IMG/VR virus record: IMGVR_UViG_3300027839_000017
Coordinates: 1 to 47,585 of that record
Length of the DNA stretch: 47,585 bases
Strand: one strand, 5' to 3'
Origin: a virus
A program made the position numbers and the translations under genes. The notes under the pieces were generated by a model. That model saw only the letters and a list, made by a program, of their open reading frames with translations, did not search any database and was not told where the DNA came from. This document shows positions 966 to 45,649 of the stretch, one piece after another; position 1 is the stretch's first letter; each line of letters opens with the position of its first letter.

Positions 966-983
966 TTGGCACGGAACTTGCTT
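966..983 (+). promoter_or_regulatory. Sigma-54 promoter P1 for the virion arm
   Basis: TTGGCACGGAACTTGCTT matches the sigma-54 consensus TTGGCAC-N5-TTGCT fully, with the required GG-N10-GC spacing (GG at 968-969, GC at 980-981). The predicted start site is about 993, giving a leader of about 47 bases before the first plus-strand gene at 1040. It is the last element of the non-coding left end. The match is seen directly; use by the phage activator at 41123-41956 is inferred. Confidence 0.88.
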
Positions 984-1309: not shown

Positions 1310-1777
1310 ATGAGTGAAGTAAATGAAGAACAGATCATAGCCCTTCTTAACTTCGATATGTCTCCGGAGCAGATAGCTTCGGAGTTAGACATTCCTCTGT
1401 CTGTAGTTATTAGCGTAGAGGATAGGGTTAATAACCATACAGCTAAATCATCTGATCAGATCAAGTCTCAGATAGAGAAGAAGCTACAGATGTCTATTGA
1501 GGAGATGATTATCAACACCTTAGTAGATATCGTTCAAGACTCAGATGCTTTACCTTCTGCAAGGATTAACGCAGGCGCCGATCTACGAGAGTGGCTAGAG
1601 AAGGATGGTAAACAGATAGATGTTCCTGATCAAGTAAGGAAGTTGTCTAGGGCTATGGAGTTAGCAGAGCCTAAGATCTTCACCTTACCCAGCGAGCTAC
1701 CTAATGGTGAGACTAAGACATCCTCTACTGCTGAGGTCAACAGTGCTTTAGATGAGGCGATGACAGTTAATACATGA
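1310..1777 (+). CDS. terS: Putative terminase small subunit
   Basis: 155 residues. It would bind phage DNA and hand it to the packaging motor. The N-terminal part (about 7-35) reads as a helix-turn-helix, with a segment like MSPEQIASELDIPLSVV, followed by charged helices (about 45-110) suited to oligomerisation and an acidic tail. The assignment rests on this HTH, its size, and a 4-base ATGA overlap (1774-1777) with the large terminase gene, the usual order. No specific TerS family is recognised, so confidence is moderate. Confidence 0.65.
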   Translation: MSEVNEEQIIALLNFDMSPEQIASELDIPLSVVISVEDRVNNHTAKSSDQIKSQIEKKLQMSIEEMIINTLVDIVQDSDALPSARINAGADLREWLEKDGKQIDVPDQVRKLSRAMELAEPKIFTLPSELPNGETKTSSTAEVNSALDEAMTVNT

Positions 1778-3381
1778 ACTACGATGCCCCAGAGGTCTTC
1801 AAGACTACGCCCCTCCTAACCACTAGGAGACCAGTCCTACCTATAGCTCATCCCGCCGTCCTCACTGCTCGCTATAACAAAGCAGTGTTAGCTGGTAATG
1901 TATCTATCCATGAGTGGCAGAAGCACGTATCTATAGACTTCGCTAAGGAATACCAGGATCAGCTTCAGAACGACATGAACGTCAAGGCTGCTAATGGTAG
2001 CGGTAAGACTGCAATGCTTGTAGCACCTTGCGCCGTCTGGTCAGCTCTATTCCCTTTAGCAGAAACAGTAGTTACCTCTGCCTCTGGTGTTCAGCTTGAC
2101 CGACAAACTGGTCGTAACATTAAGGATCTAGCTCTCTCCATGAATAAGGAAGAGGGTAATGAGTGGTGGACTATCCAGAACCGTAAGCTAAACTTCGCAC
2201 CTACAGATAGTAACATAGATTTCTTTGCTACTGATGAAGCAGGGCAGGCTGAAGGTTGGCATCCTAGAGAACCAGGATCTCTCCTCACTATCATAGCTGA
2301 TGAAGCTAAGACTATTAAGGACAAGATAGCTGTATCCTTTACTCGTTGTCATGATGCTCAACGGTATATGAAGGTATCCTCTACTGATGTGGATGAAGGG
2401 TTCTTCTATCGGTCTTGTATAGGTGGAATGGCTAAGACCTTCACTGTTACAGTTAGGGATTGTCCTCACATCAAGGAACACCAGATCAACAAGATCATAG
2501 TAGAGTATGGTAAATACTCAGCAATCACCCGCTCTATCTTATGGGCGGAATTTGCATCTACTAATGACGAAGGCATCATTAACCGCAAGGAACTCCTTGC
2601 CTGTATCCATGGGGATGCAATGCTATACAAGACAGATAAACCTTTCTTTCGTATAGGACTAGATCTTGCAGCAGGTGGAGATGAGACTGTTATGGTTATC
2701 TTTAAAGGTAACAAGCAGGTAGGCTTAGAGGGGTTCGTAGAGAAAGATACTACCCTCACAGCCAAGAGGATCAACGAACTACTCCTCAACAAATACGATC
2801 TAGATCCTACCTCCGTCAACTACCGCATCAACGCTGATGACGGCGGGGTTGGTAGAGGTATTAATGATCAAATCCGTAACCACGGTTGGAGATTAAAAAG
2901 AGTCCTTAATAACTCTAAACCTTTCAACGGTAAGATCTTCCTTAACCGTGGAGCAGAACTATACTTCAACGCATCTTCTCTTATTTCTAACAAAGAGATC
3001 ATTCCTTTCTCTGATGAGAAGACTATATCCCAACTTACTAAGCGTAGATTAGCTCATTCAGAGACTGGTCGCTTTAGATTAGAGGATAAGAAGAAACTCA
3101 AGTCCAGAGAAGGTTGGTCACCTGATAGAGCTGATGCATTCGTCTTAGCACTAGCAGGACTTAAGGCTCCTTACTTCACAGCAGGTAAAGAAGCGGAGCC
3201 AGAGGAACCTTCACTCCTCCACATAGACGATGAATTCAAAAGGCTCTGTATCCAGTCCTTTAACCAAGATCAAGATCGTATGCTTAAAGGATTAGAGCCT
3301 AAGATCAAGTTAGGTGCTAGCTTAGAACGTAATAAACCTAGACCTAAGACCTTTGTGAACGCCTATTCCCGTAGACTATAA
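1774..3381 (+). CDS. terL: Terminase large subunit (packaging ATPase-nuclease)
   Basis: 535 residues, the normal length. It translocates DNA into the prohead and cuts it. The ATPase half has Walker A NGSGKT (74-79, K78) and Walker B ending in D176-E177 within LLTIIADEAKT. The RNase H-like nuclease half shows its acidic residues at D297 (IGLDLAAGGDET), D355/D356 (NADDGGVGRG) and D454 (DRADAFVLALAG). It follows terS by an ATGA overlap and precedes the portal gene by 10 bases. Motifs are intact and identification is firm; whether packaging is headful or site-specific cannot be read from it. Confidence 0.95.
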   Translation: MNYDAPEVFKTTPLLTTRRPVLPIAHPAVLTARYNKAVLAGNVSIHEWQKHVSIDFAKEYQDQLQNDMNVKAANGSGKTAMLVAPCAVWSALFPLAETVVTSASGVQLDRQTGRNIKDLALSMNKEEGNEWWTIQNRKLNFAPTDSNIDFFATDEAGQAEGWHPREPGSLLTIIADEAKTIKDKIAVSFTRCHDAQRYMKVSSTDVDEGFFYRSCIGGMAKTFTVTVRDCPHIKEHQINKIIVEYGKYSAITRSILWAEFASTNDEGIINRKELLACIHGDAMLYKTDKPFFRIGLDLAAGGDETVMVIFKGNKQVGLEGFVEKDTTLTAKRINELLLNKYDLDPTSVNYRINADDGGVGRGINDQIRNHGWRLKRVLNNSKPFNGKIFLNRGAELYFNASSLISNKEIIPFSDEKTISQLTKRRLAHSETGRFRLEDKKKLKSREGWSPDRADAFVLALAGLKAPYFTAGKEAEPEEPSLLHIDDEFKRLCIQSFNQDQDRMLKGLEPKIKLGASLERNKPRPKTFVNAYSRRL

Positions 3382-3391
3382 CCTTTCCATC

Positions 3392-5224
3392 ATGAATACC
3401 GAAGCAATACCAGTAACTAATGTGTCAACAGAGGAACTAAAGCCTAAGTCTCCAGAGAAGTATGGGGATTTTGACTTTACTAGTGCTAACCTAGGCAAGC
3501 TTATCTCTGATTGGAGCACAGTCCAGGACAAAGTAGAGCGTAACAGGAGAACTATTGACTACACTGTAGACAATAAGGAACTCAGGGCCTCTCAAGACCT
3601 ACAAGAAGATGAACTCCTCACCCCTGTGAGGATGATTAAGAAGAATATCAAGCGGTTAATCCCTTCTTACCTAGAAGCCTTAGTAGGAACGCAGGATGTA
3701 GTGTCACTTAAGAACTCCATAGACCCTACTATCTCTCCTGATGCTCTTAATTCTGAGATTACCAAACTGCTGAGGACTAACAGCTGGCTAGAGAACCACA
3801 TACTCAACATCCAAGGCTTCCTTTCCCACGGTATCAGCTACATAGTAACGGAGTTTAACGTAGATACTCCTTCTAGCATAGACAATATCAGATATAAGGT
3901 AGAGGATGTCCTCATTCCCTCTGACTTAGAGGATCTACAGTCAGCTGAGTTGATAGCATTGAGGTTAACTGTTACTCCTACTAAGTTAAGGGAGTTGGTT
4001 ACTAAGTTTGAGTTCAATAAGTCTGTAGCTGATAAGGCTATCAAGGATAAGATAGTAGATCAGGAGTCCCTTAGACCTAAGGAGAATGCTTTCCATATCT
4101 ACCACTGTTACTACAAGCAAGATGGGGTAGTGTATCATGCTTGGATCTCTAATACTAGGTCCAGCACATGGCTAAAGTCTCCTAAACCTCTATATCTAGG
4201 TAGGAGTGACAAGGAAGAGGAGCCTGAGTTAGATGTAGTAGGTCAACCTATCTTAGATCAAGAAGGTAATCCAGTAATTAAGGTTAACCTTATCCCTGCA
4301 CAAGAGTTTGAGTATCCTATAGACGTGTATTACCGTTCATTCCCTGAGAGTGGCAGGGTGCTAGAAGCTAGTGGTGTTGCAGAGGATAGTGGTCCTATCC
4401 AAGAGGCTGCTACTATCCTTTTATCTACCCACATCAACGCAACTGTTAGAAGTGGCAACCTATACGCTAGTGTTAACGCACTATCAGAAGAGGATTCAGG
4501 GGATGCACCGGCGCAACTAGATGTAAAGCTTAAAGCTGGTGAGATCCTTAACCGTCCTGTCACCTCTCACAGTGTGCAGAGGCCAGACAACACCTCTATC
4601 GAAGCTCTCTCTTATCTTTCCCAGGAGAATGCTGATGAGCAGTCACAGTTCTCTTTCCTCTTAGGTGTAGGTAGAGGAGATAGGAAAACCGCTACTGAGA
4701 CTAACGCAGCTCAGCAACAAACCTCTCAAGCATCTAGCCAAGATCTCCTAGTCTACCACTTAGCCTACCACTCTACAGTCACTAGAGCTGTGAGGATCAT
4801 GTTGAACAGGTGGAGGAATGGTAAGTTAGACATTAAGGCTCCAGAAGAGTTGAAGGATAGCAGGTGGCACATAGAGCCTGTAGCTCAGAAGGATGCTCTG
4901 ATGAAGCAGCAGAGGATTCAACAGCGGAGGATGGATTGGCCAGTAGTATCTGTTACTCCTATGGCTGATCTATTCTTTGTTGATTGGATAAGAGAAGCTT
5001 ATCCAGCGCATTCTGATAAGTATGTGCAAGCCTTGAACGATGGAGGAGGAGTTAATGGTCTTACTAAGGAGAACCAACAGCTTAAGGGTCAACTAGGCTC
5101 TGCGGCTAATATCTTAGAATCTTTACTCTCTGAGGGAATGCTAGAGGAACTAGATCCTAAAGAGAGGGAAACACTAAACCAGCAAATACAACAGATGAAA
5201 GGAGTAGCAGCAGATGAAGGCTAA
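3392..5224 (+). CDS. Portal protein
   Basis: 610 residues, acidic and mostly helical, forming the dodecameric ring through which DNA enters and leaves the capsid. Evidence is position directly after terL, length typical of podovirus portals, and portal-like passages: an N-terminal helical segment (about 30-70), the YLEAL/VSLKNS region near 95-110, and a C-terminal Gln-rich helix (about 420-450, NAAQQQTSQASSQD) with long coiled segments to the end. Its end overlaps the next gene by 11 bases. Confidence 0.85.
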   Translation: MNTEAIPVTNVSTEELKPKSPEKYGDFDFTSANLGKLISDWSTVQDKVERNRRTIDYTVDNKELRASQDLQEDELLTPVRMIKKNIKRLIPSYLEALVGTQDVVSLKNSIDPTISPDALNSEITKLLRTNSWLENHILNIQGFLSHGISYIVTEFNVDTPSSIDNIRYKVEDVLIPSDLEDLQSAELIALRLTVTPTKLRELVTKFEFNKSVADKAIKDKIVDQESLRPKENAFHIYHCYYKQDGVVYHAWISNTRSSTWLKSPKPLYLGRSDKEEEPELDVVGQPILDQEGNPVIKVNLIPAQEFEYPIDVYYRSFPESGRVLEASGVAEDSGPIQEAATILLSTHINATVRSGNLYASVNALSEEDSGDAPAQLDVKLKAGEILNRPVTSHSVQRPDNTSIEALSYLSQENADEQSQFSFLLGVGRGDRKTATETNAAQQQTSQASSQDLLVYHLAYHSTVTRAVRIMLNRWRNGKLDIKAPEELKDSRWHIEPVAQKDALMKQQRIQQRRMDWPVVSVTPMADLFFVDWIREAYPAHSDKYVQALNDGGGVNGLTKENQQLKGQLGSAANILESLLSEGMLEELDPKERETLNQQIQQMKGVAADEG

Positions 5225-5497: not shown

Positions 5498-6667
5498 ATG
5501 ACACCAGAAGAACAGGCAGCACTAGACGCAGCAGTTGAACAAGAGAAGACCTTGATGAATGATGATGAATCATTAGAGGATTTCTTCGGAGGAGAATTAG
5601 AACTAGAAGAAAAGGAAGAAGATGGTTCAGCCAATAAGAAGAGTGATGATGAAGCAGAGGTTATCGAGGGTGAAGATGAATCAGGTGGAGAGGAAGGAGG
5701 AGATAAAGGAGAAGAAGGAGATTCATCTGAAGATAGTTCCAGCGAAGAAGAGAAAGATGTCTTAGCTGATCTAGGTAAAGAACCAGAGGAGAAAGAGGAG
5801 AAGGTAGAGCCAGGTAAAGAGAAGAGAGATTATTCTGAGTTCACAGTAGAGGAACAAGCAGTCCTCAAAAGAATGCCTAACGAAGCATTTAACTACACCT
5901 CTGCTAAACTTAGAGAGCACAAGCTACTAATAGCAGAAACAGCTACTCTCAAAGATACTGCTCAGCACATCTACTCTAACCCCGAAGCATACCGTATCCT
6001 TCCTGAGTCTAAGGAGATCCTAGCTAACCTTACAGATCAAGAAGATCTCAAGGGCTTCTATCAAGAACAACTCCAGCTTGCCTCACAAGGTAAAGCTTGG
6101 ACTGGGCTGAAAGAAGGAGCAGATGGTAAGCTAGAAAGATTACCTATTGCTGCTACTGTAGCTAAGAACGAGGATGGGGATGAAGTAAATGTAGCTGATC
6201 CTCAACACGTAGCTTGGATTAACCAGCAGATGGGTAAGGTTGACTCAGACAAGCAATCCCTGATCTCTCGTTATGCAGCTATCAAGAAAGAGCATGAAGA
6301 GAAGTCTAAGGATATACCTAGCTTCCTAACTGCTGCTGAGGATAAGGTCTTCCCTGATATGAAGACTCTCACTAAACCTCAACAGAAGTTTGTGGATGAA
6401 GTGGCTAAGGCTTTCCCTCTCTCACTCAGGGTAGATCCTATGATGAAATTCGTAGGTAAAGGTCTTATCCATGTCCAAGCTTTAAAGACTCAGCTAGCTG
6501 CTAAGGACGCAGAGATCGCTAAGCTCAAGGGGATTAAGGTAGAGAAGGATCTCGCCGGACCAGGAACTAAGGCTGTAACCTCAGGTGCAGGAAGTAAAGA
6601 GGCTGATGGTGACACTAAAGAGTTCAAGGACAATGACTTCGAGGGGATGGGAATGCCTAGCCTTTAG
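5498..6667 (+). CDS. Putative capsid scaffolding protein
   Basis: 389 residues. The first 115 are extremely acidic (long Glu/Asp/Ser stretches), followed by helical, coiled-coil-prone sequence and a C-terminal helix (about 340-355, LKTQLAAKDAEIAKLKGIK). Acidic, helical, low-complexity proteins between portal and capsid genes are typical scaffolds that shape the procapsid and then leave. Start chosen for GAGGAATAGATATG. Function is inferred from composition and order. Confidence 0.72.
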   Translation: MTPEEQAALDAAVEQEKTLMNDDESLEDFFGGELELEEKEEDGSANKKSDDEAEVIEGEDESGGEEGGDKGEEGDSSEDSSSEEEKDVLADLGKEPEEKEEKVEPGKEKRDYSEFTVEEQAVLKRMPNEAFNYTSAKLREHKLLIAETATLKDTAQHIYSNPEAYRILPESKEILANLTDQEDLKGFYQEQLQLASQGKAWTGLKEGADGKLERLPIAATVAKNEDGDEVNVADPQHVAWINQQMGKVDSDKQSLISRYAAIKKEHEEKSKDIPSFLTAAEDKVFPDMKTLTKPQQKFVDEVAKAFPLSLRVDPMMKFVGKGLIHVQALKTQLAAKDAEIAKLKGIKVEKDLAGPGTKAVTSGAGSKEADGDTKEFKDNDFEGMGMPSL

Positions 6668-6679
6668 ATAATAAACTTA

Positions 6680-6702
6680 TGCCATACTAGCAACATGGCA
6701 TG
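6680..6702. repeat. Small inverted repeat overlapping promoter P4
   Basis: ATGCCAT (6680-6686) and ATGGCAT (6695-6701) form perfect 7-base arms. The right arm is the -24 box of P4, so a binding protein or cruciform here could control that promoter. Confidence 0.5.
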
Positions 6703-6712
6703 ATTCCTGCTC
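6695..6712 (+). promoter_or_regulatory. Sigma-54 promoter P4 for the major capsid gene
   Basis: ATGGCATGATTCCTGCTC carries TGGCAT-N5-CTGCT with exact GG-N10-GC spacing (GG 6697-6698, GC 6709-6710). The -12 side TTCCTGCT is identical to that of P3 (45632-45649). The predicted start is about 6722, giving a leader of about 145 bases before the capsid ATG at 6867. Weaker -24 box (CAT for CAC) than P1, but the position is ideal for boosting the most abundant virion protein. Confidence 0.68.
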
Positions 6713-6737
6713 CTAATAGGTAGGACATAAATTCAGG

Positions 6738-6857
6738 CACTTCTAGTAAGTGCTTTCGCTTCTGAGGTAAGGGCATACCAATTACAATAGAGATTAGATT
6801 CTTTTCTGAATTTAGTATTTACTCTCTAGGTTCAACCCTTACTTCTAGAAGCGAAAG
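6738..6857 (+). promoter_or_regulatory. Structured leader of the capsid mRNA
   Basis: Two nested structures precede the capsid gene. A small hairpin GCACTT-CTAGT-AAGTGC lies at 6738-6753. A long stem pairs 6753-6773 with 6836-6857: 11 base pairs (CTTTCGCTTCT with AGAAGCGAAAG), an internal loop, then 6 more (TAAGGG with CCCTTA). The right arm ends 9 bases before the ATG. Likely roles are mRNA stabilisation, RNase processing, or translation control; which one is not shown by sequence. Confidence 0.65.
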
Positions 6858-6866
6858 ATACTTATT

Positions 6867-8159
6867 ATGCCAGTTGATATTGATGTAGCCATCACAACAC
6901 GTCAGTGGGATGTGGAGGATGTTAACAAGTTTAACAAACTTCCCTACTACTTTGCTAAGATGTCAGCACGGAAGTCCGTGCAATATAGCGTATGGCAGAA
7001 GCTATACGGAACACTTCCTTGGACTCCCAAACAAGGAACTACTCTTCGAGGTGTAGCTCAGGAACCTTCTCCTGTTACTCGTCAACAGTTCTCACCTAAT
7101 GCTATTACAGCTGGTGCAACTCGTGACATTATCACTACCCTCGAACGAACCTCTGATGCTCTGGTTCAACGACACAAGTTTGAATCACCTCAGTTCCACT
7201 TCCTTCAAGAGTTCCAAGACTTTGCAACTCATATCGCATTTAACAATGCTGATATTAACCGTCAGATCATGGTTGCTCAAGAAGCTTTCTTGAGAACACA
7301 AGCTCTACATAAGTCTCCTATGATGGTTATCGTAGGTAAGACGGGGACTGGAACTGCTCTATCTGAGCTTACTTCTGTTCCTCATCAAACTGGTATCGTT
7401 GATATCGCTGCTGCTTCTGGTAAGACTACTGCCTTCTGGCAGGATGCTATCTCTAAGGTAGCTCCTACAGGTGGTGAGATGAACCTCCGAGCTTTCCATC
7501 GTTGCCTAGCTTATATCTCAGAAGATATCCAAGCAGAGCCTTTCTCTTCGCTTACCTCTGTATCTAAGAAAGATGCACCTGTAGCTGATCGTTACATCAT
7601 GACTGGTGAGAACTCCTTGTATAGTAACCTTATCTTCGATCAAGAAGCTAAGGCTTTGATGAGTGCTGATAGTAACTTCCTTACTAACCAGTTCACCGGT
7701 TCGTTGTTCAATCGTTTGAACTTCATGTCAGAACAGTATCCTTTGCGATTAGATGCAGATGGAACTTTCCCAGTCCCTGAGATCATCGTATCCTCTACTA
7801 CTGGTGGAGATAACCATAACCAAACCATTCCTAACCCTGACTATGCTGCTGCTCCTTTTGGGATTGCATTCATTACAGGTGCTAATGCTTATCGAGCTAT
7901 CTCTGTTGGTGCTCCTCCTGCTGCCTTTGCTGGTCAGTCTATGAGCGAAGGTCGATTCAATAAGCTTAACTGGAATGGTCGAGCACGTCTAACGGATAAC
8001 GTCCTCATCAACTATGGTGGTGGTATCCAAGATGTTAATAACTACGGTGAGGTTATGAAGTTCATTGCTGATGCAACCTTCGCTGCCCTAGCTCAAACGT
8101 CTAGGTTCTGTATTCCAGTCCTATACCGACGTAATCGCTTCGGTTCAACTGATAGCTAA
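6867..8159 (+). CDS. Major capsid protein
   Basis: 430 residues, with no membrane segment. Assigned by order (terminase, portal, scaffold, capsid), by size, by a composition rich in Ala, Thr, Asn and Phe typical of HK97-fold shells, and by its privileged expression signals: own sigma-54 promoter P4 and a structured leader. Leader before the ATG reads GCGAAAGATACTTATT, lacking GGAGG, as for the next structural genes. No named family motif is recognised, so the fold is inferred. Confidence 0.82.
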   Translation: MPVDIDVAITTRQWDVEDVNKFNKLPYYFAKMSARKSVQYSVWQKLYGTLPWTPKQGTTLRGVAQEPSPVTRQQFSPNAITAGATRDIITTLERTSDALVQRHKFESPQFHFLQEFQDFATHIAFNNADINRQIMVAQEAFLRTQALHKSPMMVIVGKTGTGTALSELTSVPHQTGIVDIAAASGKTTAFWQDAISKVAPTGGEMNLRAFHRCLAYISEDIQAEPFSSLTSVSKKDAPVADRYIMTGENSLYSNLIFDQEAKALMSADSNFLTNQFTGSLFNRLNFMSEQYPLRLDADGTFPVPEIIVSSTTGGDNHNQTIPNPDYAAAPFGIAFITGANAYRAISVGAPPAAFAGQSMSEGRFNKLNWNGRARLTDNVLINYGGGIQDVNNYGEVMKFIADATFAALAQTSRFCIPVLYRRNRFGSTDS

Positions 8160-8697: not shown

Positions 8698-8752
8698 AAG
8701 ACTTTCAGTTCGGGTTGTTGGGCCTGGGTTGTTGTGTATGCTGGAAAACAAG

Positions 8753-8790
8753 AAAGGGCACTCTTATAGCTGAGGGTGCCCTTTTCTTCT
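8753..8790 (+). terminator. Rho-independent terminator after capsid unit
   Basis: AAAGGGCAC (8753-8761) pairs with GTGCCCTTT (8775-8783), extended by CTC/GAG with one bulge, loop TTATAGCT, followed by TTTTCTTCT. It closes the P4 capsid transcription unit and should leave the two head genes at higher level than downstream fibre genes. Confidence 0.85.
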
Positions 8791-8823
8791 AATCAGATCT
8801 AAAGTTTAACGAAAGAATTTATT

Positions 8824-10873: not shown

Positions 10874-10885
10874 AGTATGAAGCAC

Positions 10886-10927
10886 GAGGGGTTAGGAGAT
10901 AGTTCTAACCCTTCCTCTTCTTACTTT
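10886..10927 (+). terminator. Putative terminator
   Basis: GGGTTAG (10889-10895) pairs with CTAACCC (10905-10911) around a 9-base loop, followed by a T-rich tract (TTCCTCTTCTTACTTT). It separates the capsid/fibre genes from the membrane cassette starting at 11016. Confidence 0.65.
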
Positions 10928-11015
10928 AAGTAATAGGATTAGGTAATAGCAACGCTACTATCGTCAGTAACAAACTGAGAAATGAATAATAGAATGAATA
11001 CAGAAAGTATAATAG

Positions 11016-11374: not shown

Positions 11375-11863
11375 ATGAAGTTAATCTTAAATCATATAGG
11401 ACTTGTCTTTGCATTAACAATCTTCCTGTTCGTAGCAGGGTTTGGATACCACCACAGTGCTGATGAGAAGAGGGCCAAGGATGTAGTAGAAGGTCTGACT
11501 CTAGCTTTTGATTCTACAGGGACAGCAGTTATAGTTGCGGATAAGAGAGGCAAGATTAGATTCTGGACTTCAGGTGCAGAGGATCTATTCGGTTACACTA
11601 CTGAAGAAGCTCTAGGGGAGAATATCAAGATACTAATGCCAAAGTCGCTACAACCCGCGCATGCCATAGCTTTTAAAGAGGCTTTCCAATCTGGTGATAG
11701 TAGTGTGCAGGAGATAAACTGTGTCGCCGTTCTCAAAGATGGGAATCCTAAACTGATTAAGGTAAGCATGTGGAGGACTGAACAGTATGCTTACGCTATA
11801 GTCAGTGATCCTAGTAAGGTGAAGCACTTTACATCACCAGAGTTTATGAGTATCCTGCGGTAG
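11375..11863 (+). CDS. Membrane-anchored PAS-domain protein
   Basis: 162 residues. An N-terminal hydrophobic segment (about 7-24) is followed by one PAS domain (about 45-152): TGTAVIVADKRGKIRFWTSG, then AEDLFGYTTEEALGENI, then LMPKSLQPAHA, the standard PAS core. PAS domains sense redox state, light or small ligands or mediate dimerisation; no kinase, cyclase or output domain is attached. It starts 2 bases after the holin-like gene. An anchored sensor in this position might tune lysis timing or interfere with a host PAS signalling protein; both ideas are inference. The haem/flavin ligand cannot be assigned. Confidence 0.85.
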   Translation: MKLILNHIGLVFALTIFLFVAGFGYHHSADEKRAKDVVEGLTLAFDSTGTAVIVADKRGKIRFWTSGAEDLFGYTTEEALGENIKILMPKSLQPAHAIAFKEAFQSGDSSVQEINCVAVLKDGNPKLIKVSMWRTEQYAYAIVSDPSKVKHFTSPEFMSILR

Positions 11864-30661: not shown

Positions 30662-30810
30662 AAATTCATTATCTTATTTGAATATCCAGTAATTAATACA
30701 ATGGACCAGAAGGTTAATATTCCTTCTATCCTACCGAAGACTGCTATGCTAATACTTAATGCTACTGCTAGTATCACCAAGCTTAGCCATTTCTCAGACA
30801 GTGATTCCAT
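30658..30810 (-). CDS. 50-residue two-helix membrane protein
   Basis: Begins MESLSEKWLSLVILAVALSI and contains two hydrophobic stretches (about 9-25 and 30-41) joined by GRIEG. It starts 17 bases inside the end of the papain-like protease gene and ends with an ATGA overlap. Topology resembles a tiny holin or an anchor for the protease; both are guesses. Confidence 0.68.
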   Translation of the reverse strand: MESLSEKWLSLVILAVALSISIAVFGRIEGILTFWSIVLITGYSNKIMNL

Positions 30811-31519
30811 AACAGCTTTTCAATGCAAGGTTAGCATAGGTTTTGATATCCATATATCCATAGCCTCTTCTACCCCACCTAGTTCCCCAGCTATTCTTGA
30901 TGATGTAACCTTGGGGAGTATAGCCGCAGATGATGATAGCATGTCCCGGACTCATAGGAGGTTGGATCTTATAGTTAGCTAACCTCTTAGTATTAAAGGA
31001 CATGAACTGTGGATCAGGAGTGAGGTGCGTGACTAAAGGACCATGTTCATGTAGCCATGCCTTGATCTTCTTCTCTGATCTACCTACGTTGTAATAGGAT
31101 TTGATCTTATTCTTAGCTGCTTCCTTGATATAATCTGCTTGGGAAAGGTTACAGAACCTACCCATAGGCATCTGCTTCCTGGTAAGACAGCCATGCTTCT
31201 TAGCTACAGAGAGCGCGTCCTTGATATAGGTTCCGGCGGTAGTCAGTGCTGTGGTAGGCAATACCTTATAAGCATCTGATTCCTTACTACACATCCACAG
31301 GAAGTTAGGTGATAGATCCTCAAGGGTATGCCATTCCATTACACCCGTAACTGCAAAGCCTACACATGCACCAGATTGGTATTGGTTCTTCATCTTCCAA
31401 CTCCTCCTCCTAAGGTCTAGGTGAGTGGGTGCACTGTTATCTGTTAGATCGTAACGGTAATCCGTTGAAGTGTTACGGTCTTTGAATGCTGTTAGTAGTG
31501 GTTTCATTTCTTGTTTCAT
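30794..31519 (-). CDS. Papain-family (C1) cysteine protease
   Basis: 241 residues. The full catalytic set is visible: oxyanion Gln46 and nucleophile Cys52 in QYQSGACVGFA, His193 in GHAIIICGY, and Asn209 in KNSWGTRWGRRGYGYMD. The N-terminal part before the catalytic domain is only about 30 residues (starting near APTHLDLR), so the usual inhibitory propeptide and signal peptide are missing and it should act in the cytoplasm without activation. It sits in the replication operon beside the polymerase. Targets may be host proteins; unknown. Confidence 0.9.
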   Translation of the reverse strand: MKQEMKPLLTAFKDRNTSTDYRYDLTDNSAPTHLDLRRRSWKMKNQYQSGACVGFAVTGVMEWHTLEDLSPNFLWMCSKESDAYKVLPTTALTTAGTYIKDALSVAKKHGCLTRKQMPMGRFCNLSQADYIKEAAKNKIKSYYNVGRSEKKIKAWLHEHGPLVTHLTPDPQFMSFNTKRLANYKIQPPMSPGHAIIICGYTPQGYIIKNSWGTRWGRRGYGYMDIKTYANLALKSCYGITV

Positions 31520-40220: not shown

Positions 40221-40296
40221 AAGTAGATCGGATGGCTTTAACGGTTAGGTCTAGGAGGAACAGAAAAGATAGGGTGAGTGGGATTAGATAGATCAT
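40210..40296 (-). CDS. 28-residue membrane peptide
   Basis: Begins MIYLIPLTLSFLFLLDLTVK: one hydrophobic helix and a basic tail (RSTYER). Start forms an ATGA overlap with the glycosyltransferase stop (40293-40296) and its end overlaps the next gene by 11 bases, so it is translated in series with them. Confidence 0.62.
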   Translation of the reverse strand: MIYLIPLTLSFLFLLDLTVKAIRSTYER

Positions 40297-41039
40297 ACCT
40301 CTTTCCCTTCTCTCTCACTCAAGAGATCTCTATGGTATCTATCCATTCTCTCTTGCTCTGCTACTGACTTCCGATGTTGAATGACAGGGAAGAAGTCAAC
40401 AGTCATCCCATTCTCCTCTGATCTCTTAGCTATAGGCATCTCATGTGTAACACCTATCACCTCATCCGTCAACGCTATACTCATCAGCCTTGGCTGGATG
40501 TCAGGCCACATCCACCGTTGTAGATAGTGCTCTCTCATACCCCTAGGTAACACGGCACTTCCCTCATATACATTATTGCCTCCACCTGTTTCCTTTAAAC
40601 TCTTCAACACTTCCAGATCTTTAGGGCCTACACCCTTGATAGTATTGTTCCTTGGCATACCTATACAGAAGGGAGAGGAGAAATCTATGTGAGTAGGGAG
40701 CGAGTTGGATAGGTGAGAGAGGGAGTCTAAGGTTAGATACTCATCTCCATCTAAGAAGAAGATCCATCCTTCTTTCTTCTCCTGTTGCAACTGACGAAGG
40801 AGTTCAGTCTTCCTCTGCCCGAAGTTATTCTTGAAGGCATAACTGATAGGGTTATACCTATCATCATCTAACTCACTCAGCAACGCAGGATGTTGCTCAG
40901 AGTTACTATCTACCACCGGAACATAGGTTATATTCTCTTGCCCCCTATAGTAGTGACGAGCATTAACTAACTCATCCTTTCTTGAGAAGAACTGGTATAG
41001 GTAGAGGTGTGGTATGGGGGTGCTGGTTGTTGGATTCAT
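40293..41039 (-). CDS. Glycosyltransferase family 2-like, replication arm
   Basis: 248 residues. WIFFLDGDEYLTLDS carries the GT-A DxD, and PRLMSIALTDEVIGVTHEMP is a typical core-oligosaccharide GT2 tail, similar in layout to the enzyme at 14318-15052. It is separated from the three other glycosyltransferases, directly behind sigma-54 promoter P2, and heads the replication operon. Timing suggests it modifies something different from the virion glycan genes, perhaps host surface or a DNA-linked sugar. Confidence 0.75.
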   Translation of the reverse strand: MNPTTSTPIPHLYLYQFFSRKDELVNARHYYRGQENITYVPVVDSNSEQHPALLSELDDDRYNPISYAFKNNFGQRKTELLRQLQQEKKEGWIFFLDGDEYLTLDSLSHLSNSLPTHIDFSSPFCIGMPRNNTIKGVGPKDLEVLKSLKETGGGNNVYEGSAVLPRGMREHYLQRWMWPDIQPRLMSIALTDEVIGVTHEMPIAKRSEENGMTVDFFPVIQHRKSVAEQERMDRYHRDLLSEREGKEV

Positions 41040-41072: not shown

Positions 41073-41090
41073 AGCAGGTTCCGTGCCACA
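41073..41090 (-). promoter_or_regulatory. Sigma-54 promoter P2 for replication operon
   Basis: On the minus strand TGTGGCACGGAACCTGCT: TGGCAC-N5-CTGCT with GG-N10-GC spacing. The 11 bases TGGCACGGAAC are identical to those of P1. Predicted start near 41062, about 22 bases before the glycosyltransferase ATG. Located just after the gene for the activator itself. Confidence 0.8.
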
Positions 41091-41122: not shown

Positions 41123-41956
41123 TTATTGTGTAGATGGTGGTAAGATCTTATTAACCATAAGTTGGAACACGTAGTTAATGATAGCCCTACAGTTTCCCTG
41201 GTCTAGGAAAATCTTACCTTCCTTTGCTTTGATAATGAATGTGTTAGTATCATACTCACTAGGTGATTGGTTGAAGATCTTAGAGTAATAGTAGATGAAC
41301 ATCATCTCCAAGTCATCTATCCTCTTAGCTATAGGCGGGATGGAGAAGGTTAGCTTAGCTATCCTGAAGTATAGATCACTACGGAACTCCTCCTTATCCA
41401 TCATCTCAGGTAGGTTCTTATTCGTTGCGGCTACGACACGACACCTAAAGCCATAGTCTTCTTGTCCTCCGATAGCTCTAGCTCGTTGAGTCTCTAAGGC
41501 TCTGAGAAGCTTAGCCTGCATGGATAGAGGGAGTTCGCCGATCTCATCTAGGAACAGAGTCCCATGATTAGCCTGTTGAAACAAACCCTCCCTATCCTTA
41601 ACACACCCCGTGTAACTACCTTTCTTAGCTCCGAAGAACTCAGCCTCTATCAACTCAGATGGTATAGCTCCGCAGTTAACTACTACGAACTTACCTTCCC
41701 TGCCATTGTGTAGGCGGTAAGCTAAGGCTTCCTTACCTACCCCTGAAGGACCACTAATCAGACATGAGATATCTAACTTACTCACTACCTCTATCTGATT
41801 CAAGGTATGAATGAGCTTATCATCCTGAGTATAGAAGGTTCCTTTCCATCTACTCCTTAGAGAAGACTCGAGGTTGAAGATGTCTAGCTTCTTATCAGGA
41901 AGTATATCCTCTTGGAATTCATCTAAGATAGTCTGCTTGGTATGTTGGGCTTGCAT
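41123..41956 (-). CDS. Sigma-54 activator ATPase (AAA+ domain only)
   Basis: 277 residues. Walker A GPSGVGKE (K75), sigma-54 contact loop GSYTGC (113-118, replacing GAFTGA; key Thr and Gly kept), Walker B LFLDEIGELP (D137, E138), sensor AATN, arginine residues FRSDLYFR (R192, R198), and lid GNCRA (254-258). These are the marks of bacterial enhancer-binding proteins, which use ATP to open sigma-54 promoters. No receiver or other sensory domain precedes it and no HTH follows: it ends about 20 residues after the lid. Enhancer-less activators such as FlgR and CtcC are known. The phage promoters P1-P4 are its likely targets. Confidence 0.93.
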   Translation of the reverse strand: MQAQHTKQTILDEFQEDILPDKKLDIFNLESSLRSRWKGTFYTQDDKLIHTLNQIEVVSKLDISCLISGPSGVGKEALAYRLHNGREGKFVVVNCGAIPSELIEAEFFGAKKGSYTGCVKDREGLFQQANHGTLFLDEIGELPLSMQAKLLRALETQRARAIGGQEDYGFRCRVVAATNKNLPEMMDKEEFRSDLYFRIAKLTFSIPPIAKRIDDLEMMFIYYYSKIFNQSPSEYDTNTFIIKAKEGKIFLDQGNCRAIINYVFQLMVNKILPPSTQ

Positions 41957-44795: not shown

Positions 44796-45431
44796 CTAGC
44801 TCTCGTCATCTTCTGCTGCTTGTTTAGCCAGCTTAAGAGCTGAAGCCACTGCATCTCCATCTCCACCTTGAGCCTCCAAGAAGGCTGCGAACTGTGACAA
44901 GGTATCTCCATCTGCTTTGCCCAAGTAGTCTTTGATCTTCTTGGTATCTGCTGCCTTTGCGGATACTGCTTTCTTGAATAGGGAATCTTTCTCATTCCCA
45001 TATCCTTCTAGGAATTTATCCGAAGAGTCTCCGTATTTCTGGGAGAAGTCAGTTGCTACTTTAGCAGAGAGAGCACCATGCAACATCCGAATTGCATCAT
45101 CATCAAGCCATGTGCAGACATCTTCAGCTGATACCAACTCCTTAACCTCTTCACCTTCACCATCCTCTTGGAACAGTGGCTTCCAAGTATACTCCATAGA
45201 GCCTCGACCTTTCTTGCTCCAGATGAAGGTGATAGATACTCCGTTGCGGACCACGTCTCTAGTAGTTCCAGGGGTTAGTGTTTCTCCGCCGATCTCATAA
45301 GACTTAACTGCCTTAACCTCTGGTGCAGAAACATCTTGTCCAAAGGTTGGAGCTGGTGCTACAGCTCCAGTTGCATCTTCTCCATACAGGTTTTTTGTTG
45401 GTCCGTTATTCGTGATTGATTGTGTGAGCAT
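44796..45431 (-). CDS. Abundant-type acidic protein under promoter P3
   Basis: 211 residues, acidic, Ala/Asp/Lys-rich, soluble; a beta-rich middle (about 45-90, VVRNGVSITFIWSKKGRG) and helical C-terminus ending EDDES. Not recognised. It forms a single-gene unit: own sigma-54 promoter, 190-base structured leader, AAAGG ribosome site and strong terminator, the pattern of a protein needed in large amounts such as a DNA-binding protein, inhibitor or host-takeover factor. An acidic tail resembles those of single-strand DNA-binding proteins, but no OB-fold is demonstrated. Confidence 0.68.
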   Translation of the reverse strand: MLTQSITNNGPTKNLYGEDATGAVAPAPTFGQDVSAPEVKAVKSYEIGGETLTPGTTRDVVRNGVSITFIWSKKGRGSMEYTWKPLFQEDGEGEEVKELVSAEDVCTWLDDDAIRMLHGALSAKVATDFSQKYGDSSDKFLEGYGNEKDSLFKKAVSAKAADTKKIKDYLGKADGDTLSQFAAFLEAQGGDGDAVASALKLAKQAAEDDES

Positions 45432-45450
45432 ATTGTGCCTTTTCTATTGG

Positions 45451-45573
45451 TTAACTAGTTAAACAGAATTCTTAACATTAAGAACTCCCGTCATAGCTTA
45501 AAGGTTAAGTATTAAAGAAGATACTCTCTAAGCTATGGGAGGAGATATCAATGGGCTGATAATTTATGATATC
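45451..45573. promoter_or_regulatory. Dyads and long hairpin in the P3 leader
   Basis: Four inverted repeats sit between P3 and the gene: perfect palindrome TTAACTAGTTAA (45451-45462); TTCTTAACATTAAGAA (45469-45484); a long stem CATAGCTTA/TAAGCTATG (45492-45500 with 45529-45537, outer CTCC/GGAG, inner AGTAT/ATACT); and GATATCA/TGATATC (45544-45550 with 45567-45573). In the mRNA they form a structured leader similar in kind to the capsid leader. Confidence 0.65.
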
Positions 45574-45631
45574 CTAAGTAGGGAAATATTACGGAGTGTG
45601 ATTTGTGAAGCATGATCTATACCTACTATAT

Positions 45632-45649
45632 AGCAGGAAGTGTGCCAAG
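45632..45649 (-). promoter_or_regulatory. Sigma-54 promoter P3
   Basis: On the minus strand CTTGGCACACTTCCTGCT: TTGGCAC-N5-CTGCT, GG-N10-GC spacing exact. Predicted start near 45621, giving a leader of about 190 bases before the ATG at 45431. It lies 6 bases after the end of the gene at 45656-46000. Confidence 0.8.

Follow-up and report, generated by a model that had tools for sequence, protein, structure and literature searches.

A phage family with a minimal sigma-54 activator: a probable sigma-54 promoter ahead of the capsid gene, and a candidate RNA hairpin in the capsid leader

Phages usually take over transcription by replacing, modifying or appropriating the sigma-70 polymerase, or by bringing a polymerase of their own. 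Sigma-54-type late promoters are already known from the Pseudomonas phage YuA (Yuavirus), and single sigma-54-type regulators are likewise known from phages, namely that of phi1422 and phrog_7998. YuA resembles the virus analysed here in being a tailed phage whose particle-formation region contains -24/-12 promoters, and its authors are said to have shown in 2008 that these promoters depend on the host rpoN. Three promoters carry the annotation 'high activity, -24/-12 consensus sequence' in its GenBank record (AM749441). Phage phi1422 encodes a sigma-54 type regulator, alongside which the excerpted text of the corresponding article (PMC3391216) describes no phage sigma-54 promoters. A phage sigma-54 regulon served by an activator of the phage itself was not found described in the titles and abstracts of the open-licence PMC literature, and because of this scope the novelty of such a regulon is provisional. 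If our reading is correct, a phage family that supplies the ATPase for the normally silent sigma-54 holoenzyme of its host would represent a different route of takeover, with late promoters that have almost no basal activity before the activator appears.

The window, as the DNA analysed here is called, comprises a 47,585-bp virus record from IMG/VR with a GC content of 42.6%. The genes leading up to the capsid are arranged as follows:

1774-3381, plus strand: terminase large subunit (PHROG 2, E 1.8e-16)
3392-5224, plus strand: portal-like gene, named from gene order and kept in relatives
5498-6667, plus strand: scaffold-like gene preceding the promoter, named from gene order
6867-8159, plus strand: capsid-like gene of 430 aa, named from gene order

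From this order we infer that the 430-aa protein, which has no library match, is the major capsid protein. A gap of 199 bp (6668-6866) separates the scaffold-like from the capsid-like gene. An earlier note on this DNA had described it as the only non-coding gap of the head module, which is correct in so far as it is the sole sizeable gap from terminase to capsid, but not beyond, since more gaps lie downstream of the capsid-like gene (8698-8823 and 10874-11015). Elsewhere in the window, a PAS-domain protein (11375-11863; PF00989, E 5.7e-10) is located inside the structural region, and a papain-family cysteine protease (30794-31519, minus strand; PF00112, E 2.4e-18) amid the replication genes. 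Positions 1-960 are non-coding and of low complexity, with frequent runs of AGAAGTA and TATA; this end of the window may serve replication or packaging.

The 199-bp gap holds one of four sigma-54-type sites of the window:

966-982, plus strand: sigma-54 site ahead of the terminase/head unit (pattern and matrix)
6695-6711, plus strand: putative capsid-gene promoter of the sigma-54 type, -24 TGGCAT and -12 TGCT (pattern, weight matrix, 38 of 41 capsids)
6722, plus strand: predicted transcription start of the capsid mRNA, from the geometry of the -12 element
41073-41089, minus strand: sigma-54 site immediately behind the activator gene and directed towards gene 40293-41039 (pattern and matrix)
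45632-45648, minus strand: sigma-54 site upstream of gene 44796-45431 (pattern and matrix)

At the site in the gap, the plus strand reads TGGCATGATTCCTGCT (6696-6711), with the canonical GG-to-GC spacing: a -24 GG and a -12 GC are 10 bp apart, in agreement with the sigma-54 consensus YTGGCACGN4TTGCW. The exactly spaced -24/-12 match that had been reported upstream of the capsid gene is indeed present and unique, for TGGCAT-N5-CTGCT occurs a single time in the window versus 0.04 expected occurrences. The more general pattern TGGCAYN6TGCW has four exact matches (967+, 6696+, 41073- and 45632-) versus a mean expectation of 0.22, and none of 100 shuffled windows contained four. All four are situated between genes and oriented into transcription units, and the -12 side of the 6696 site, CCTGCT, is common to the sites at 41073 and 45632. 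A hand-made weight matrix ranks the same four sites at the top of all window positions, and the reversed window contains no score of 11 or more. On the other hand, 4 of 200 order-3 Markov simulations contained at least four sites with such a score, and the 6696 site is the lowest of the four (12.96), so that the window on its own would not settle the promoter. Both observations lend some support to the reading that the 6696 match arose by chance and that the capsid mRNA is made solely as part of the unit that begins upstream, at 967.

The relatives of the window, however, argue against chance. They were gathered by the capsid profile alone, to avoid circularity, which yielded 66 loci; together with the window these represent 41 distinct capsids, and the capsid proteins of the relatives are merely about 28-35% identical to that of the window. 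An exact sigma-54 site is found within 350 bp upstream of the capsid gene in 38 of the 41, at a median distance of 154 bp from the start codon, compared to 1.04% of control segments and to none of the 41 for the reversed pattern. The corresponding binomial p of about 5e-72 takes the capsids as independent and, as related phages are counted in this way, overstates the certainty; the contrast with the controls holds regardless of this assumption. With a site at the same place in so many distinct relatives, a chance match at 6696 is hardly credible. The promoter is not obligatory, because a marine-type subclade lacks the capsid site while it has kept the activator and the leader hairpins discussed below.

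Positions that the search pattern left free follow the sigma-54 consensus as well: T precedes TGG in 27 of the 38 capsid-upstream sites, G follows TGGCAY in 27, and T precedes TGCW in 24. All 38 end in TGCT, though TGCA was permitted, which points to a preference specific to the family. Such a preference would also suit a DNA element of another kind, either a site to which a phage protein binds or the promoter of an unrecognised phage polymerase. We regard this as very unlikely, given that the spacing and the free positions fit the sigma-54 consensus, that the sites are directional relative to the genes, and that the cognate activator domain is present in these genomes; in addition, a search for a T7-type polymerase, run without a positive control, found none.

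The activator gene of the window is located next to one of the four sites:

41123-41956, minus strand: minimal sigma-54 activator of 277 aa, AAA+ core only (PF00158, E 6.7e-56)

The protein contains Walker A (GPSGVGKE), Walker B (FLDEIG), sensor I (ATN), an arginine-finger region (FRSDLYFR) and sensor II (GNCR), shortly after which it ends, and thus combines PF00158 with the motifs by which bEBPs are recognised. Its sigma-54-contacting loop reads GSYTGC instead of GAFTGA, as does that of the activator from locus L012, and most relatives' activators have G(S/A)(F/Y)(T/S)GA at this place. Neither a receiver or sensor domain nor a Fis helix-turn-helix was detected in the window protein; a Fis-type DNA-binding domain is missing in 17 of 17 aligned activators, and HTH_8 was not found across 21 records. 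A C-terminal domain of the Fis type is usual in bEBPs, though not universal, and as it does not define them, we describe the window protein as a variant without DNA-binding domain. An alignment-based AlphaFold model (pLDDT 82.6) retrieved the AAA+ domains of FleQ/FlrC/NtrC in Foldseek (E about 1e-22), with FleQ, NtrC-family proteins and PspF among the solved relatives, and phrog_7998, labelled as of unknown function, matches the window activator with E 1.7e-35. Some database 'phage' matches to the activator look like host DNA; one of them, L006, is a full cellular response regulator when translated.

A search of IMG/VR with a profile of the AAA+ core yielded 80 loci, 43 of which encode minimal activators of 235-304 aa, whereas a two-sequence activator profile had found no relatives. 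Sigma-54 sites are concentrated at the 43 minimal-activator loci (71 versus 2 for the reversed sequence) as compared to loci with longer proteins (14 versus 5), and 27 whole records with minimal activators contain 82 sites versus 1 in the reversed control. In the tree, 35 minimal activators constitute one supported clade; the activators of the window and of L012 form a pair whose long branch is of unsure placement. Another set of minimal activators (282-304 aa) is encoded on the IMG/VR contigs L024, L026 and L079, at loci without a strict sigma-54 site; the whole record behind L079 has one such site, and the L024 and L079 activators form a separate branch.

Twelve minimal-activator records have terminase, portal-like, capsid, tail and polymerase genes in common with the window, and the scaffold-like gene and the helicases only in part. 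The site upstream of the capsid is present in 11 of the 12; in one of these 11 (G001) the two candidates score lower, at 12.8 and 12.2. Conversely, among 33 records selected by the capsid profile, PF00158 was detected in 29, the other four being contigs of 20-37 kb, and all 33 carry sigma-54 sites (171 in total versus 10 in the control). An RpoN DNA-binding domain was found in none of 21 records. The window has no close relatives among the results of single-protein IMG/VR scans (capsid, terminase, activator and polymerase) or in INPHARED, searched by DNA and by capsid protein; the terminase search returned distant matches only, with Akkermansia phages as the best, and the capsid profile identified no host in GTDB genomes.

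The earlier note's central claim, that the capsid gene has a sigma-54 promoter of its own, is therefore strongly supported, both by the site at 38 of 41 capsids and by the activator encoded in the family. That note names neither the activator nor the hairpins of the leader. Which protein opens this promoter is a separate matter. The promoter might depend on sigma-54 and be opened by an enhancer-binding protein of the host, with the phage AAA+ protein acting elsewhere, for example by stirring host sigma-54 genes or by serving another remodelling step. The phage protein has no DNA-binding domain and a GSYTGC rather than a GAFTGA loop, and YuA has annotated -24/-12 promoters without PF00158, a host activator being presumed there; all of this would suit a host protein. 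Activator gene and sigma-54 sites nevertheless co-occur across the family, and in 28 of 39 distinct cases a site follows the activator gene within 450 bp, as in the window, which makes the involvement of a host activator unlikely. We therefore consider it very probable that the capsid gene is served by a genuine sigma-54 promoter at 6696, within a phage regulon that is run by the phage activator.

Three further features belong to the promoter and to the leader that would be transcribed from it:

6679-6701, no strand assigned: inverted repeat ATGCCAT/ATGGCAT over the -24 box, arms 6679-6685 and 6695-6701, 9 nt apart
6722-6866, plus strand: structured leader of the capsid mRNA (folding versus shuffles)
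6758-6782, plus strand: conserved leader hairpin, loop AAGGGCAU at 6769-6776, stem 6766-6768/6777-6779 (covariance model 29.6 bits)

The inverted repeat, to which the earlier note had drawn attention, exists, but by eye it is not conserved upstream of the capsid sites of relatives. A role as terminator or operator was rejected, as the minus-strand terminator-like match is at chance level and the relatives lack it by eye; the overlap with the -24 box is probably incidental.

The capsid leader is predicted to fold with -60.9 kcal/mol versus -34.0 kcal/mol for shuffles (z -7.3). In the predicted fold the start codon lies buried in a long hairpin with the arms 6753-6763/6847-6857. According to the earlier note the promoter would explain high capsid expression, but the leader may just as well hold translation down. 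This long hairpin is not general: two relatives have z values between about -4 and -5, and several are near 0. Another leader of the window, from the 45632 site to gene 44796-45431 (45432-45631, minus strand), likewise looks structured by eye (CTCCCATAGC ... GCTATGACGGGAG).

The short hairpin, by comparison, recurs among the relatives (leaders in L091, L098, L100, L103, L105, L111, L114, L120, L125 and many of L127-L192) as a GCUUCUA-like sequence followed by a stem of 3-5 bp with the loop AAGGGCAU, often as a tandem pair. When every AAGGGCAT in the leaders is considered, with no filter for a stem, 54 of 55 are flanked by three complementary pairs. In 38 distinct copies picked on the loop only, stem pairing amounts to 86.8% versus 43.4% in shuffled copies, and the covariation score to 0.997 versus 0.17, a signal that is lost when the partners are slid. 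By the loop pattern, a hairpin is present in 30 of 41 distinct leaders versus 1.2% of control segments, and several of the other 11 leaders have, by eye, related hairpins with different loops. A covariance model run over 692 kb gave 17 matches, every one in a capsid leader. No Rfam family scored above its gathering threshold; the best matches were two microRNA families (E 0.64-0.65), far under their gathering scores. These comparisons suggest a candidate new RNA element that is essentially confined to capsid leaders. Since the subclade mentioned above has hairpins and no sigma-54 site, the element is separable from the promoter.

The occurrence of hairpins where the capsid promoter is missing means that no link to the promoter is needed, and it could also be taken in favour of an element acting at the DNA level, such as a protein-binding or cruciform site. 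We consider this rather improbable: an invariant loop between stems that are free in sequence, yet complementary, is the opposite of a palindromic protein site, and the hairpins are restricted to one strand and to the capsid leader. Two specific functions of the leader hairpin were rejected. Pairing of the loop with the start codon (GGGCAU/AUGCC) suits Met-Pro starts, not Met-Ala starts, and is not general. The CsrA motif contains GGA, which the hairpin loop lacks.

Taken together, a mechanism can be proposed as follows. The phage has no detectable sigma-54 of its own, and host RpoN is assumed. The phage would make a minimal AAA+ activator with a sigma-54-contacting loop, which would turn the host's sigma-54 RNA polymerase from the closed to the open complex at the -24/-12 sites of the phage. 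Lacking a DNA-binding domain, it would act from solution or via another protein, the former being the probable mode; some cellular bEBPs activate without such a domain. Late transcription of at least four units would follow: the terminase/head unit, the capsid gene alone, gene 44796-45431, and the gene that follows the activator. A separate capsid mRNA would begin near 6722 with the hairpin-bearing leader, whose hairpin is most likely either the target of a regulatory protein or a determinant of translation or stability. The full proposal, in which a private sigma-54 late regulon is combined with a leader RNA (GCUUCUA followed by stem-AAGGGCAU-stem) that tunes the capsid and might be an operator to which the capsid protein binds, appears to us moderately probable. 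The model predicts that hosts carry RpoN and that, in infected cells, their own sigma-54 regulons may respond to the activator. The leader hairpin, as a candidate RNA family tied to one structural gene, makes the control of capsid dosage testable.

Compared with known systems, the leader element broadly resembles mini-ykkC tandem hairpins, CsrA sites and coat-protein operators, which are short stem-loops of 5'-leaders with a conserved loop and a free stem. The loop AAGGGCAU, by contrast, neither reads ACGR nor contains GGA. YuA differs from the window in several respects: strict-pattern sigma-54 sites and matches to the hairpin model are absent from the 50 kb read, its record lacks the GCTWCTA-N-GGGCA leader pattern, and it has no PF00158 activator, whereas the window encodes one and thus is not a sigma-54 phage of the YuA type. 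Phage DP SC_2_H4_2017 from the human gut encodes, like the window, a sigma-54 activator-like protein without DNA-binding domain (303 aa; L005, 19776-20687). This protein has the P-loop GETGTDKE and is placed elsewhere in the tree than that of the window, and the 38.7 kb read of this phage contains no strict sigma-54 site, the best matrix score being 12.2. Unlike cellular bEBPs, the phage activators are mostly 235-323 aa long and have neither an N-terminal sensor nor a C-terminal Fis helix-turn-helix; with NtrC, FleQ/FlrC and PspF they share the same AAA+ sigma-54-interaction domain, including all of its catalytic motifs.
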